64,000 nt of DNA, from contig CP126207.1 of NCBI GenBank assembly GCA_030272155.1, positions 620,001 to 684,000 of the forward strand, given 5' to 3'. The notes below the pieces were generated by a model. That model had not been told where the DNA came from. It did no database searches and worked only from the letters and a program-made list of their open reading frames with translations. Of this stretch, positions 1-60,645 are shown in pieces (within the stretch, counting starts at the first letter, position 1; every line of letters starts with the position of its first letter). The stretch is from Tetradesmus obliquus (taxonomy: Eukaryota > Chlorophyta > Chlorophyceae > Sphaeropleales > Scenedesmaceae). The position numbers were made by a program, and so were the translations under genes.

Positions 1-3000
1 GGTATGGGTAACAACCCAGAACTCCAGCTGGCTGGACTCAGCTGTGAACTCCACGTCTTGCGCAGTGCCGAAGAACACCTTGTTGTCATTCCAGTTGCTG
101 CAAGGCAAAAACAACATAACAATGACACATAAGTAACTTATTTTTGATCATCAAGCCAGCAAGGTTTGAGAACTGTTTTTACTTCTCATCAGCAGCAGCA
201 GAGCTGCTGCTGGCATTGCCGAAGCCCCTGCTATGCAACGTGCAAAACACAGGATTTGGCTCGCATCCATAGTAAAAAAGGAACGTCATGAAAATAATAA
301 CATGTCATTTCTCACCAGTGCTCGTCGCACTCGCTGGCCATTAGGTTGTTGGTGGGGCCTGTCACATCCAACACGCCCTTGCCATTGACATCATCCGAAC
401 ATCACATAGCCGTTCAAACTATGTTATAACATGTCACTTCTCACCAGTGCTCATCACACTCGCTGCCATGAGGTTGTTGGTGGGGCCTGTCATATTGAAC
501 ACGCCCTTGCCATTCACAGCATTCACACGTCATAATCATTTCAAATCATGTTGTAACATGTCACTTCTCACCAGTGCTCGTCACACTCGTGGCCATGAGG
601 TTGTTGGTGGGGCCAATCACATTGAACACGCCCTTGCCATTCACAGCATTCACATGTCACACAACTTTTCAAATTATGTTATAACATGTTGTTTCTCACC
701 AGTGCTCGTCACACTCGCTGGCCATCAGGTTGTTGGTGGGGCCTGTCACATTGAACACGTTCTTGCCATTCACAACCTTCAAACGTCACAAAACATTTCA
801 AAACATGTTATAACATGTTACTTCTCACCAGTGCTCATCGCACTCGCTGGCCATCAGGTTGTTGGTGGGGCCTGTCACATTGAACACGCCCTTGCCATTC
901 ACTGAACCCCAGAAAGCCCCCAGAGAGGCAGCAGTCTGCAGCAGCAGCAGCAGCAGCAGCAGCAGCAGCAGCAGCAGCAGCAGCAGCAGCAGCAGCAGCA
1001 GCAGCAGCAACAGCAGCAGCAGCAGCAGCAACACAGGTCAGCATAAGCGGTGATCAAACCTTTGCCGTTAACATGGTCTCAGAATGCTCCCAGCAGGGCA
1101 GCAGTCTGCAGCAGCAGCAGCGTCCTTTGCAATCCGCCTGCTACATGCTTTACCCAACTCTAAACACTTCAACCCAAATCCCAATCTCTGCAAAACCCTA
1201 CCTGCAGAGGGCACAGGAATTCGAACGCGTCTGAATCGTCCTGCATGTTGGCGCTCATGATTTTGAATCCTTCACGCGCCTCCTGCTGGCCCCTCACGTC
1301 CGGCAGCAACGTCATTGACACATTCTTGGCGATCTGCAGCAGCAGCAGCAGCAGCAGCAGCAGCAGCAGCAGCAGCAGCAGCAGCAGCAGCAGCAGTAAC
1401 AAATCAGGCATGCCAGGTCAGCAGATGGTGTGTTGCTGCTCGCTGATGATTGGCAGCAGCGTTATCTACATCATCATCAGCAGCATCGGCAGCAGCAGTA
1501 CTGGCAAACTGGCTGCTGCTTGGCCATGCATGTCATAAAGCTGCTGACATCCGGTGAAGAGTTTGGGCGTAAAGTCCAAGGCTTTTATGTGTGTTTTAAT
1601 CCCTTTGAAAACTTCAATGCTCACCTTTGCGCCCTTTGCTGCCGGCTTGAGCATGTAGGCCACAAAGCTGCTGACAGCCGCCGTAGGGTAGAAAAATGTC
1701 AAATTACATAGGGCTTAGGAATTCCACATGTACTATACAGCATGTTTGACCAATGAACCCTGCCCAGCTCACCTTTGCTCCCTTTGCTGCCGGATCAAGC
1801 TTGTAAGCCACGAAGATGGCGCCATCACAGCTAGGGTCTAGGGACGCATGGCTGATCCTTAAACCCTTAGATATGCTCACCTTTGCGCCCTTTGCTGCCG
1901 GCTTGAGCATGTAAGCCACAAAGCTGCTGACGTCGGGGCGCCAGAAGATGAGGATGTGCGGCGTGATCTGCAGCAGCAGCGGCAGCGGCGGCAGCAGCAG
2001 CAGAAGCGGTGAGCTGAGACAACACATGATGTGCTTAAACGAACATGGTCGCTGGAACCAAGACACGCATTCCCTGATCTTCTATATAATCGCACAAACT
2101 CATATCTTTTACATATTGTACATGTACAGATATGCTTGAAACACGCTGTTCTTGCACAAAACACACATTCAACCCTGGAAAGAATAAAAACCCTACCTTC
2201 AGCAGCTCGTTGATGGTTTTGAACATTTCCTTGTCACTCTTTTTGACCGTGATGAGCTCGGTGTAACTTGGAGGCGTCATCTGCATCAGGAACTCCGTCA
2301 TGACACCTGTTACATGACATAGAATGTTGCAGCAGCAGCAGCAGCAGCAGCAGCAGCAGCAGCAGCAGCAGCAGCAGCAGCAGCCGCAGCAGCAGCAGCA
2401 GCAGCAGCAGCAGAGGGCTGTCATCTGCCTTGCAAGGTGTAGTAGCGTCAAGAGCGCAGCTTCTGACCTGCATCACCAACAACTAACAATTCTAAACTTA
2501 TAAATTTATAATAAAAAAAACAATCTTCAGCAATTTGACAAACTAATCAATACCCACCGTATATGCCCATGCCTCCAACCATCCCTCTGAACTCCGGATC
2601 GCTGGGCTTGCTGACATGCACTTTCCCTGTGCCGTCCACCCATGTTATCTCCAAAAGAGTGTCCCATATGCCGCTTGTTGTCTTGTCACCAGAGCCATGT
2701 GCTGTTGTGGCCAGCACACCAGACAGGGTAAGGCCCGCGTAAGCTGTAGGGGTGCCAAGCTGCATCATTGAAGCAGCAGCAGCAGCAACAGCAGCAATGG
2801 TGGTGGTCAGGGTTGAAAATCTGGTCTTGTCACCAGAGCCGTGTGATTGCGTTGATGCCATGCTGCTGGACAGCTGTGCCTTCATGCCAGCGCACTTTTC
2901 CTGCGTCTTGCAGCTCCTTGCAAAGCATGCCCGCTTTGGGGACAAAGAAAAGCACCCGGCAACATGGCACAACACAGAACATAAAACCAAAAAGGAAAAA

Positions 3001-6000
3001 GGTCATTTCACCTGCACGCTCATGCCGGCCTTTTCTGCTTCTTGCAGCAGCTCCGTGTAGCGCATGCCCTCCGTATGCAGAAAAGATGGCACATGCAACT
3101 ATGACACACGACAAACATATCACAACATTGTCAAAGAATTATGGCGGGTCACTTGCACACTCATGGCCGCCTTTTCTGCCTCTTGCAGCAGCTCAGTGTA
3201 ACACATGATACGACACATGCCGTTCTGACGATGCACAGCACAGTATACACAATACTGTCACGCAAGCAACACTCATCTGTTCACCTGCACACTCATGCCA
3301 GCCTTTTCTGCCTCTTGCAGCAGCTCCGTGTAACGCATGATACGACACATGCAGGTAACATGGCACATACCCTGACAACACAAGAGAAAGCATACAACAC
3401 TGTCAGAAGATTTTGGTGGCTCACCTGCACGCTCATGCCCGCTTTCTCTGCCTCTTGCAGCAGCTCGATATAACGCATGCCTGCCTTGATACTGCAAAAC
3501 TTACCGGCGATATGACACAACACAAAGAGTAGGCCTTGAACCCTGAAGAGCGTCATTTCTCTGCCTCTTGCAGCAGCTCCGTACAGCACATGCCAGCCTT
3601 ATGATATGACTCATGCAGTTATGACGGCGCACAGCACAGTACATTCCACACAATACTGTCACACGAGCAACACTCATTTGTTCACCTGCACGCTCGTGCC
3701 CGCTTTCTCTGCTTCTTGCAGCAGCTCCGTGTAACGCATGCATGCCGGCTTACGGACAAAGAAGTGACATGACACGCAACACACAACACACAACAAACAG
3801 TGTAAAATGGCTACTGTTCACCTGTACGCTCATGCCCGCTTTCTCTGCTTCTTGCAGCAGCTGTGTATAACGCATGCATGCCGTGTACAGGTAACATGAC
3901 ACATACCATGACAACACAAGAGAGAGCACACCAACCCTTTACATAAACCCTTCTGTTGCTTACCTGCACGCTCATGCCCGCTTTCTCTGCCTCTTGCAGC
4001 AGCTCTGTATAGCGCATGCCTGCTCCCACCCGCATCGTGTACTTGCTGCTGTCTTTAGCCAGGACTTTGCTGAGCTTGTGGTTCAGCAGCCCAACCTGCA
4101 CAGCAAGATAACATGTCACATTTGTTATAACATGTTAATAGCATCACTGCTTTCTCAGGTGAGTTTTGTACTTGCTGCTGTCTGTGACCAGGACCATGCT
4201 CAGCTTGTGGTTCAGCAGGCCAACCTGCACAGCACAGAAACATGTCACATTTGTTGTCACGTGTTATACAGTTTATGGTATTGTTGCTTTCCTAGATGGA
4301 TTGTGTACTTGCTGCTGTCTGTGGCCAGGACTTTGCTGAGCTTGCGGTTCAGCAGCCAACCTGCACAGCACAGAAATATGTTACATTTGTTATAACATGT
4401 TAATAGCTTCGTTGCTTTCTCAGGTGAATTGTGTACTTGCTGCTGTCAGCGGCCAGGGCCATGCTCAGCTTGTGGTTGAGCAGGCCAACCTGCACAGCAC
4501 ATTAACATGTCATATGTGCTTCAGTATGTTATGTTAATGGTATTGTTGCTTTCTCAGATGGATTGTGCGCTTGATGCTGTCTGTGGCCAGGACTTTGCTC
4601 AGCTTGTGGTGCAGCAGCCCAACCTGCACAGCACAATAACATGCCATATGTGTTATAACATGTTATTGGTATAGTTGCTTTCTCAAATGGTTGTACGCTT
4701 GCTGCTGTCTGTGGCCAGGACCATGCTCAGCTTGTGGTTCAGCAGGCCAACCTTCACAGCACAATACCTTGTTACATCTGTTATAACATGTTTATGTTAC
4801 TGTTGCCTTCCTAGAAGGATTGTGTATCTGCTGCTGTCAGTGGTTTTTGGCCAGGACTTTGCTGAGCTTGTGGTTGAGCAGGCCAACCTGCACAGCACAG
4901 AAACATGTTACATTTGTTGTAACATGATGAATGGTATTGTTGCTTTTGCTGAGCTTGTGGTTCAGCAGGCCAACCAGCAGCACGCAAACACACAGCACAC
5001 AGCAATGACATTATCTACATATATTACATCAGTTTGCATATCATCATCAGACATTTGATTGCTTTTTTTCATTCAAATGGCAGCCCATGTGCAAGAAATG
5101 GTGCTGCAGCAAATGCCTACTAGTCCCATCTAAACAGCAGTCACCAAGGGTGAACTAGATCTAGCTGCCAAAAAGTAACAAAACATGACAAGTATAACAC
5201 GTTACAAGGCACAAGATAACAGTTTGTTCGCTGCTCACCTGCAGCGGCTGCCTCATGTCGGCCGGGATCTGGCCCCCAACCTTCAGCGGCGTGTTGGGAC
5301 ACACAAAGCTGCGGCAGCAGCAGCAGCAGCAGCAGCAGCAGCAGCAGCAGCGGCAAGCCAGATGCAGTTTGATGAGTATGATGATACTTCACCTTCACTC
5401 ATCTCAGAGCTGCAGCTTTCCTGCCAGTGCTCTGATCAAGCCGTGCTTGGTAGTTTGACTGACGCCTGCAACCATGGCCCAGTGGCAATGCTTCCAAGCA
5501 GGCGAATCAGACATCAATACACTGTCACCCGGCAGTTCAACAGCGTCACTTCACTACACACTCACTGTGAACTTGTGTGGAATTTGGGGCGTGAGGCGCG
5601 CAGCGTCACCGGCTGCCCTGCCTTTGTCTTGTTGTAGTAAAAGGCAATGGCATTTGCGGCCTCTGCGGTGCTTGAGGGGATCACTAGGGCGGAGCCCCAG
5701 CACTGCAATCAAAACGTATCACAACAGCATCAGCAGCAAGAGAGTTTCAGGTATAACTGCTTCTTATGCCTGCAAAAATGCTTTGTTTTAGTATGAGAAA
5801 TTGCATTTGCAGCCTCTGCGGTGCTTGAGGGGATCACCAGGGCAGAGCGCCAGCACTGCGATGGATTTTGAAACAAGGTGGGTAAATAGCAGCAGCAGCA
5901 GCAGCAGCAGCAGCAGCAGCAGCAGCAGCAGCAGCAGCAGCAGCAGCAGCAGCAGCAGCAGCAGCAGCAGCAGCAGCAGCAGCAGCAGAAACAACCAAGA

Positions 6001-60524: not shown

Positions 60525-60534
60525 CGAGTACGTT

Positions 60535-60645
60535 GGCCCCTTTGGATCGGCGGCAGGGGCGGCATCCACGCTGAGGGCACGCAGGAGCACATTGTGGTGG
60601 AGGCCGAGTAGACTCAACTCACTGTGCAGAGTTGAGTCAACAACT
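60535..60645 (+). repeat. Stop-edge copy of dioxygenase last exon
   Basis: Copy of G-R-G-G-I-H-A-E-G-T-Q-E-H-I-V-V-E-A-E and stop, past the real stop codon, including the flanking inverted repeat. Confidence 0.92.

Follow-up and report, generated by a model that had tools for sequence, protein, structure and literature searches.

Tandem arrays of partial exon copies beside exon edges in a 64 kb stretch of the Tetradesmus obliquus genome

Gene content and local repeats

The stretch of DNA analysed here (the window) is a 64 kb segment of contig CP126207.1 (nt 620,001–684,000, forward strand) of the green alga Tetradesmus obliquus, the genome of which is assembled as 104.66 Mb in 17 contigs (GCA_030272155.1). 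Gene models were set by hand from a reading of the window except nt 44001–45899, and comprise seven genes with 56 exons and 49 introns. All 49 introns follow the GT...AG rule and the reading frames are open, without internal stop codons. The seven proteins show the Pfam families FAD_binding_4 (an FAD-linked oxidase), TFIID-18kDa (TAF13), Thioredoxin and Evr1_Alr (QSOX), PsbX, FA_desaturase (FAD3, a fatty-acid desaturase), Mito_carr (MCF, a mitochondrial carrier) and TauD. The first gene, the FAD-linked oxidase, runs past the left end of the window, and stop codons could therefore be judged in six genes. An Rfam scan of the window at gathering thresholds returned no match. At roughly half of the exon edges examined in this one stretch of chromosome, incomplete copies of the exon lie side by side next to the intact exon.

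Self-comparison of the window on the same strand found 224 pairs of repeats; in 222 the two members lie no more than 3 kb from each other, and in two they are farther apart. The local repeats form 54 clusters, of which 45 are genic, and 43 of these touch an exon (one of the 43, nt 956–1423, is a CAG run and another, nt 28273–29970, is mostly intronic). Each exon was then searched against the gene to which it belongs, with 1.5 kb added on either side, excluding matches to other exons or more than 3 kb away. This search returned 137 partial exon copies in the seven genes, confirming the initial annotation, which had described amplified copies of exon boundaries. Its range of one to nine copies per edge also holds, while the number of annotated genes is seven rather than eight. 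The length of the repeated unit has a median of 141 bp (quartiles 122.5 and 176.5). The main features are listed below; a head copy includes the upstream edge of the exon and a tail copy the downstream edge.

297–935, minus strand: FAD-linked oxidase exon 10 (829–935) with 4 tail copies (297–800); unit about 129 bp; weak head copy at about 1010–1090
1617–1967, minus strand: FAD-linked oxidase exon 8 (1881–1967) with 2 tail copies and an interior piece
2882–4095, minus strand: FAD-linked oxidase exon 5 (3964–4095) with 6 tail copies and an interior piece
4034–4990, minus strand: head side of FAD-linked oxidase exon 5 with 7 upstream head copies; higher-order repeat of a 265 bp double unit, alternate copies sharing variants
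5566–5862, minus strand: FAD-linked oxidase exon 3 (5566–5702) with 1 head copy
8562–8760, minus strand: TAF13 exon 5 (8562–8636) with 1 head copy, 100% over 31 nt
9154–10455, minus strand: TAF13 exon 4 (9731–9925) with 3 tail and 4 head copies and an interior piece
10644–12312, minus strand: TAF13 exon 3 (10800–10906) with 1 tail and 9 head copies
12352–12939, minus strand: TAF13 exon 2 (12352–12564) with 2 head copies counted; a third (12872–12939) lies in the same repeat cluster
19234–19818, minus strand: QSOX (thioredoxin + Erv1/Alr) exon 10 (19234–19671) with 1 head copy; weak stop-edge copy just to its left
20019–21467, minus strand: QSOX exon 9 (20861–20992) with 4 tail and 3 head copies and interior pieces
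21476–22290, minus strand: QSOX exon 8 (21848–22013) with 1 tail and 2 head copies
22776–23862, minus strand: QSOX exon 6 (23099–23228) with 2 tail and 3 head copies and interior pieces
23889–25651, minus strand: QSOX exon 5 (25342–25651) with 8 tail copies
25812–26325, minus strand: QSOX exon 4 (26082–26175) with 1 tail and 1 head copy
26464–27792, minus strand: QSOX exon 3 (27259–27425) with 3 tail and 3 head copies
28273–29657, minus strand: mostly intronic tandem array (QSOX intron 1) that does not lie at an exon edge; unit about 120 bp
31716–31998, minus strand: PsbX exon 4 (31716–31815) with 1 head copy
32460–32695, minus strand: PsbX exon 3 (32585–32695) with 1 tail copy
36841–37188, plus strand: desaturase exon 3 (36841–36926) with 1 tail copy
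37347–37572, plus strand: desaturase exon 4 (37470–37572) with 1 upstream head-side copy, classed as interior (exon positions 18–70)
37740–38673, plus strand: desaturase exon 5 (38521–38673) with 4 young head copies; unit about 172 bp
38837–39433, plus strand: desaturase exon 6 (39172–39284) with 2 head copies and 1 tail copy
39737–40347, plus strand: tandem array in desaturase intron 6 without exon overlap
40773–41417, plus strand: desaturase exon 8 (40773–40918) with 2 tail copies
42702–43389, plus strand: last desaturase exon (42702–42849) with stop-spanning copies in the 3' flank (2 reach the stop, 3 pieces)
47449–48588, minus strand: mitochondrial carrier exon 5 (47858–48178) with stop-edge copies (2 and a piece) and 2 head copies (and a piece)
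48743–49292, minus strand: mitochondrial carrier exon 4 (48743–48889) with 2 head copies and an interior piece
49413–50255, minus strand: mitochondrial carrier exon 3 (49593–49784) with 1 tail and 3 head copies
54651–55081, plus strand: TauD-family dioxygenase exon 2 (54788–54959) with 1 head and 1 tail copy
55144–55474, plus strand: TauD exon 3 (55359–55474) with 1 head copy and a downstream piece
55808–55982, plus strand: intron-only tandem duplication in TauD intron 4
56230–56405, plus strand: TauD exon 5 (56230–56291) with 1 weak tail copy, 81% over 32 nt
56830–57230, plus strand: TauD exon 7 (56939–57054) with 1 head and 1 tail copy
57485–58994, plus strand: TauD exon 8 (57485–57637) with 6 mutually alike tail copies, unit 195 bp, and 2 pieces
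59183–59839, plus strand: TauD exon 9 (59183–59334) with 2 tail copies and a piece
59843–60621, plus strand: TauD exon 10 (60352–60490) with 4 head copies and 1 stop-edge copy

A repeat cluster at nt 42146–42323, below the copy threshold, probably holds two more head copies, belonging to desaturase exon 10 and consisting largely of a CTG run with a few exon bases.

Position and order of the copies

The copies comprise 59 heads, 58 tails and 20 pieces without an edge. Every head copy lies upstream of its intact exon (59/59) and every tail copy downstream (58/58), so that the order proposed in the initial annotation is kept by all 117 edge copies; the same search found no head copy downstream, no tail copy upstream and, as had also been claimed, no copy of a whole exon (0/137). 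The pieces without an edge lie downstream in 13 cases and upstream in seven. A segment that spans one edge can, when duplicated in tandem, only yield this order, and the rule is accounted for by tandem duplication of a boundary-spanning segment, the mechanism put forward in the initial annotation, together with the need to leave one intact exon. The gene models remain in frame with the copies left in introns or flanks, and no new spliced intron is required. The 49 introns total 35.1 kb, or about 16.3 kb once the copies are removed.

Counting pieces, 25 of 49 acceptors, 22 of 49 donors and four of six stop codons are marked. Copies spanning the stop codon occur in FAD3, MCF and TauD, and weakly in QSOX (one copy, 77.5% over 40 nt). 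The exon-versus-gene search detected none at the seven start codons, which fits the harm that upstream start codons may cause. First-exon donors gave no copy above threshold, yet around nt 29680–29830 the eye can make out tail copies belonging to QSOX exon 1.

Paralogues were considered as a source of the copies and rejected. The TAF13 matches are confined to the window (12/12). Distant relatives of the desaturase occur on contigs 1 and 8 (37–82% identity per match), with weaker matches on contigs 3, 6 and 15.

Placement of the breakpoints

Copies are concentrated at exon edges: 43 of the 45 genic clusters touch an exon, and 47 of 98 splice sites carry copies. This could mean that boundaries are a special target, amplified by a mechanism tied to splicing or transcription; the initial annotation had described their amplification as systematic. 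As a null model, random units of the observed lengths were dropped into the genes with copies removed; they fell within introns in 43% of cases, across one boundary in 40%, within exons in 7% and over a whole exon in 7%. The exonic part of the observed units has a median of 70 nt against 68 in the null (Kolmogorov–Smirnov P = 0.31; 48 of 51 edges, the other three having no copy that reaches the edge), and the exonic share of the unit likewise follows the null (P = 0.28; 46 edges). Exonic breakpoints thus show no clustering at fixed distances from splice sites. Copies also occur at stop-codon edges, where there is no splice site, and noncoding arrays of similar unit size exist (the noncoding or intron-only arrays of the window are at nt 7643–7894, 14525–15282, 39737–40347 and 55808–55982). 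The exonic breakpoints are compatible with random placement, a splice-directed mechanism is not supported, and amplification aimed at exon edges appears improbable.

A departure from the null is seen in the share of the exon that was duplicated (P = 0.014): none of 48 edges exceeds 75%, where 17% were expected. This is read as randomly placed breakpoints followed by loss of near-complete exon copies. The excess of exon edges would reflect selection against the other outcomes, and also the longer time for which a copy can be seen when its exon half remains similar.

Occurrence elsewhere in the genome

Twenty 10 kb stretches (200 kb) were drawn at random by script. Arrays are present in 18 of these, 77 in total, of which 42 have a period of 100–139 bp. 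Repeats cover 11% of the random stretches against 43% of the window, so the window is richer than average. A kinesin gene on contig 2 carries three extra copies of model positions 260–289 upstream of the exon with positions 263–326. In a peptidase S41 gene (L029, nt 2425–3007), repeated GKGRIQSVYEL-like frames lie upstream of a longer one and are, by eye, probably more head copies.

Young arrays (full-length, at least 93% identity) number three in the window (nt 37740–38604, 43767–43892 and 44900–45907), one spanning an exon edge and two outside annotated genes. The array at nt 44900–45907 is a 26-bp minisatellite of about 39 copies with 99% matches. Outside the window there are seven more: the random stretches hold six, and the seventh lies in the locus of the photosystem II D1 protease. 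Four of the seven (L012, L018, L024:8862 and D1P:1785) span an acceptor and follow the positional rule, as judged by eye and codon score; L011 and L025 are noncoding, and L024:1435 is an in-frame coding repeat. The six arrays of the random stretches thus divide into three at an exon edge, two noncoding and one coding, a further point against duplication directed at boundaries. Not every array is at an exon/non-coding boundary, since noncoding and intron-only arrays are found both in the window and at random loci. The coding repeat (L024, nt 1435–1596) has a 66-bp (22-codon) unit and is the only young array inside an exon. Repair of breaks would be expected to leave little or no homology at the junction of a duplication; L011, among the few arrays recent enough for this to be read, has one shared base there by eye.

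One of the two distant self-matches of the window is a dispersed 74-bp repeat (nt 18217–18290 and 44714–44787, 90.5% identity). A tandem array with splice-like motifs at nt 16952–17474 lies outside the seven annotated genes and may be part of an unannotated gene. CAG/CTG is extremely abundant genome-wide, an eight-unit CAG run giving 77617 forward and 78819 reverse overlapping matches (one and none for the reversed control pattern).

The copies in relation to splicing

The D1 protease gene allows a comparison with a known protein. An exon in L031 encodes 89 residues, all identical to chain 1fc6_A (89/89) of the known D1 protease structure, the source of which we take to be Scenedesmus obliquus. 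The protein joined from seven exon frames matches 1fc7_A from residue 2 to the end with two visible substitutions, and with two gaps that stem from exon ends left off the query. Directly upstream of the exon starting VNVARML lies one half-exon with its own CAG, while the known chain passes from LFPAG directly into VNVARML. The half-exon is thus missing from the known product, and this is the single testable case. Half-exon copies in general seem to be skipped in splicing.

Use of the copies would rarely be harmless, as a copy splice site used with read-through would keep the frame open in only 6 of 111 cases. Their splice sites are nevertheless well preserved. Across 108 copy splice sites, the dinucleotide is intact in 105 (AG 56/57, GT 49/51). 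In splice-anchored alignments, which retained 108 of the 137 copies (29 were dropped for gaps or distance), the counts are 54/57 for AG and 44/46 for GT (98/103), and ungapped mismatch is 2–4% at the dinucleotides but 28–76% from the sixth intron base on. When gaps are allowed, most intron parts differ by about 19–30%, shuffled controls giving 70% identity.

Codon signature and history of the copies

Exon halves of the copies are far better conserved than the intron halves, and their differences are structured by codon. Between copy and intact exon, positions 1 and 2 differ at 352 of 5904 sites (6.0%) and position 3 at 623 of 2946 (21.1%), a ratio of 0.28 (0.265 when stratified by base, 0.31 with CpG removed). 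The initial annotation had described copies ranging from near identity to decay, but decay is a misleading term for sequence conserved in this way. Comparisons of copy with copy give 8.1% and 21.4%. The arrays of the random stretches give a ratio of 0.33 (81/1410 and 122/705; 30 pairs from seven stretches, 15 of them from L019), with frames called by codon usage; in the window, this caller found the correct frame for all 24 segments that could be checked, and none of the intergenic arrays passed it. Mismatch spacing modulo 3, which could serve as a coding test that needs no annotation, gives a high value for the intergenic arrays of the window as well, many of which contain triplet repeats (0.425 of 691 mismatch pairs). 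The signature is uneven among the ten stop-edge copies, with ratios of 0.11 for MCF (three copies), 0.46 for FAD3, 0.51 for TauD and 1.88 for QSOX.

One account treats the arrays purely as neutral relics, in which tandem copies have been under free decay ever since they arose. The geometry fits, as do pairs with 7–9% intron divergence and the D1 protease copy, which by eye has seven differences (four nonsynonymous, three synonymous). Simulated decay that is free from the start, however, yields a ratio of 0.72 where 0.28 is observed, and for the bulk of the copies free decay is contradicted by the codon positions and the simulation. As a full account it is barely credible.

A ratio as low as 0.28 would speak for half-exons that are functional and that selection retains, perhaps in the role of alternative or regulatory splice sites, and the preserved dinucleotides and the anchored mismatch profile described above would agree with this. 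The kinds of change do not. Codons with a single change comprise 515 synonymous, 188 missense and 7 nonsense cases; nonsense and missense are equally reduced (0.10 of expectation each), so that nonsense is as frequent relative to missense as by chance, and the missense changes show no clear conservative bias (mean BLOSUM62 −0.37 against −0.50 at random, P = 0.14). Simulated copies that always remain coding show no stops, against the seven observed. To this may be added the broken frame that use with read-through would cause in 105 of 111 cases, the absence of the one protein-testable copy from its product, and the MCF stop-edge copies, which are presumably unspliced and untranslated yet share the signature, although the other seven stop-edge copies do not. 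At present the copies do not appear to be under coding selection, and retention for a function is rather unlikely.

Selection might instead be of second order, if contraction or conversion regularly merged copies into the working exon and so kept them competent to code. Differences at positions 1 and 2 do rise with distance from the edge, from 1.8% in the first 10 nt to about 8% at 40–59 nt, or from 3–4% in the first 18 nt to mostly 7–9% at 18–59 nt in anchored alignments. The gradient is weaker, though still present, after splice-site anchoring, nonsense changes have not been purged, and by our rough estimate the exchange rate required would remove copies before they reached 20% divergence. 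This process is very improbable as the source of the signature.

The simulations closest to the data are those in which copies are free for the last 15–25% of their history (positions 1 and 2 0.045–0.060, position 3 0.19–0.20, 203–276 missense changes and 5–8 stops); the rates and a missense tolerance of 5% were chosen by us. It fits these simulations that the copies would have been coding for about 75–85% of their divergence. Some young arrays show this directly. Of the four copies of desaturase exon 5, three depart from the exon at 3–4 of 27–28 third positions and at 0 of 56 others, with 0–1 intron differences in about 80 bases; the first copy of TauD exon 8 differs from three others at 4–6 of 28 third positions, with 1–3 intron differences in 80. 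By eye, the D1P-1785 array resembles this pattern.

Proposed origin of the arrays

We consider it likely that the arrays arise from small random tandem duplications, a survival filter, and exchange between diverged haplotypes that supplies copies derived from coding sequence. Local tandem duplications, mostly of 100–200 bp, would strike the genome very often and irrespective of gene structure, and survival within genes would be limited to those that preserve a complete exon. Duplication across one edge would place an extra half-exon, with one splice site, just outside the exon, in the adjoining intron or, for stop-codon edges, in the 3' flank. Such half-exons would be passed over by the spliceosome if both exon edges are needed for recognition, as in exon definition. 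The intron halves would then drift, while the exon halves would remain recognisable as descendants of coding sequence that diverged while in use.

If the copies were coding for most of their divergence, copy and present exon diverged while both were used, that is, on different chromosomes. The most likely source of this divergence would be unequal exchange or gene conversion between two diverged haplotypes that pair well only over exons. In its title, the paper of Biondi et al. 2024 presents T. obliquus as diploid with strong haplotype divergence, an earlier assembly of strain DOE0152z, at 208 Mb, is nearly double the size of the one for UTEX 393, and a related strain has been described as probably diploid, its alleles being separated. 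A tentative extension is that exons are the sole stretches similar enough to recombine, so that unequal exchange and conversion would have their anchor there, chance duplications at edges would keep growing, refreshed with coding sequence from the other haplotype, and purifying selection on exons would drive intron growth through half-exon arrays genome-wide; this is possible, though doubtful.

Several observations weigh against the proposed origin. Under random placement about half of the readable outcomes would lie at exon edges, well short of 43 in 45 genic clusters. The 105 intact splice dinucleotides in 108 are somewhat more than a short free drift would be expected to leave. No simulated setting fits all counts, positions 1 and 2 suiting 25% free and missense changes 15%. 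The young arrays L018 and L024 lack the third-position pattern, and pairs at 7–9% intron divergence differ by 8% at positions 1 and 2, as under free decay. The table of copies in large arrays is star-like rather than a clean division into two haplotypes.

Related systems

Duplication itself looks ordinary here; its product, shaped by survival, is unusually dense and spread genome-wide, and the coding signature is unexpected. In a potato RdRp gene (Ma, Lan and Niu 2016, PMC4974935), a tandem duplication crosses an intron–exon boundary and parental splice signals are copied along; this is one case, in which a new intron takes its donor from the copied exon segment, whereas the alga has 137 copies in seven genes and its gene models need no new intron. 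Models of intron gain by tandem duplication also have duplications that touch exons and splice signals that are inherited, but there an exon segment is duplicated and an intron gained, while in the alga it is an edge that is copied, and an intron already present becomes longer. Repair of staggered breaks, as described in PMC8355091, gives direct tandem duplications of short segments at breaks. A 50-bp overhang is one substrate named there, against algal units of usually 100–200 bp, often repeated many-fold, and a link of the arrays to such repair is offered as a hypothesis for the duplicating event. Introners (PMC9860276) resemble the arrays in changing introns on a large scale; they spread one element through many genes, whereas within the window an algal unit is found only beside its own exon edge.

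Mutually exclusive exons arise by tandem duplication of whole exons with both splice sites. They share with the arrays the presence of tandem exon copies within a gene, and differ in that none of the 137 algal copies is whole. No description of genome-wide half-exon arrays was found among the literature matches listed, subscription papers being mostly outside that literature.

If the proposed origin is correct, a large part of the intron length in these genes would consist of skipped half-exons with intact splice sites, and the arrays would allow tests of how splicing ignores strong decoys that have one edge. They would also call for caution in gene prediction and in homology searches conducted exon by exon, and the copies would stand as a record of exchange between diverged haplotypes.

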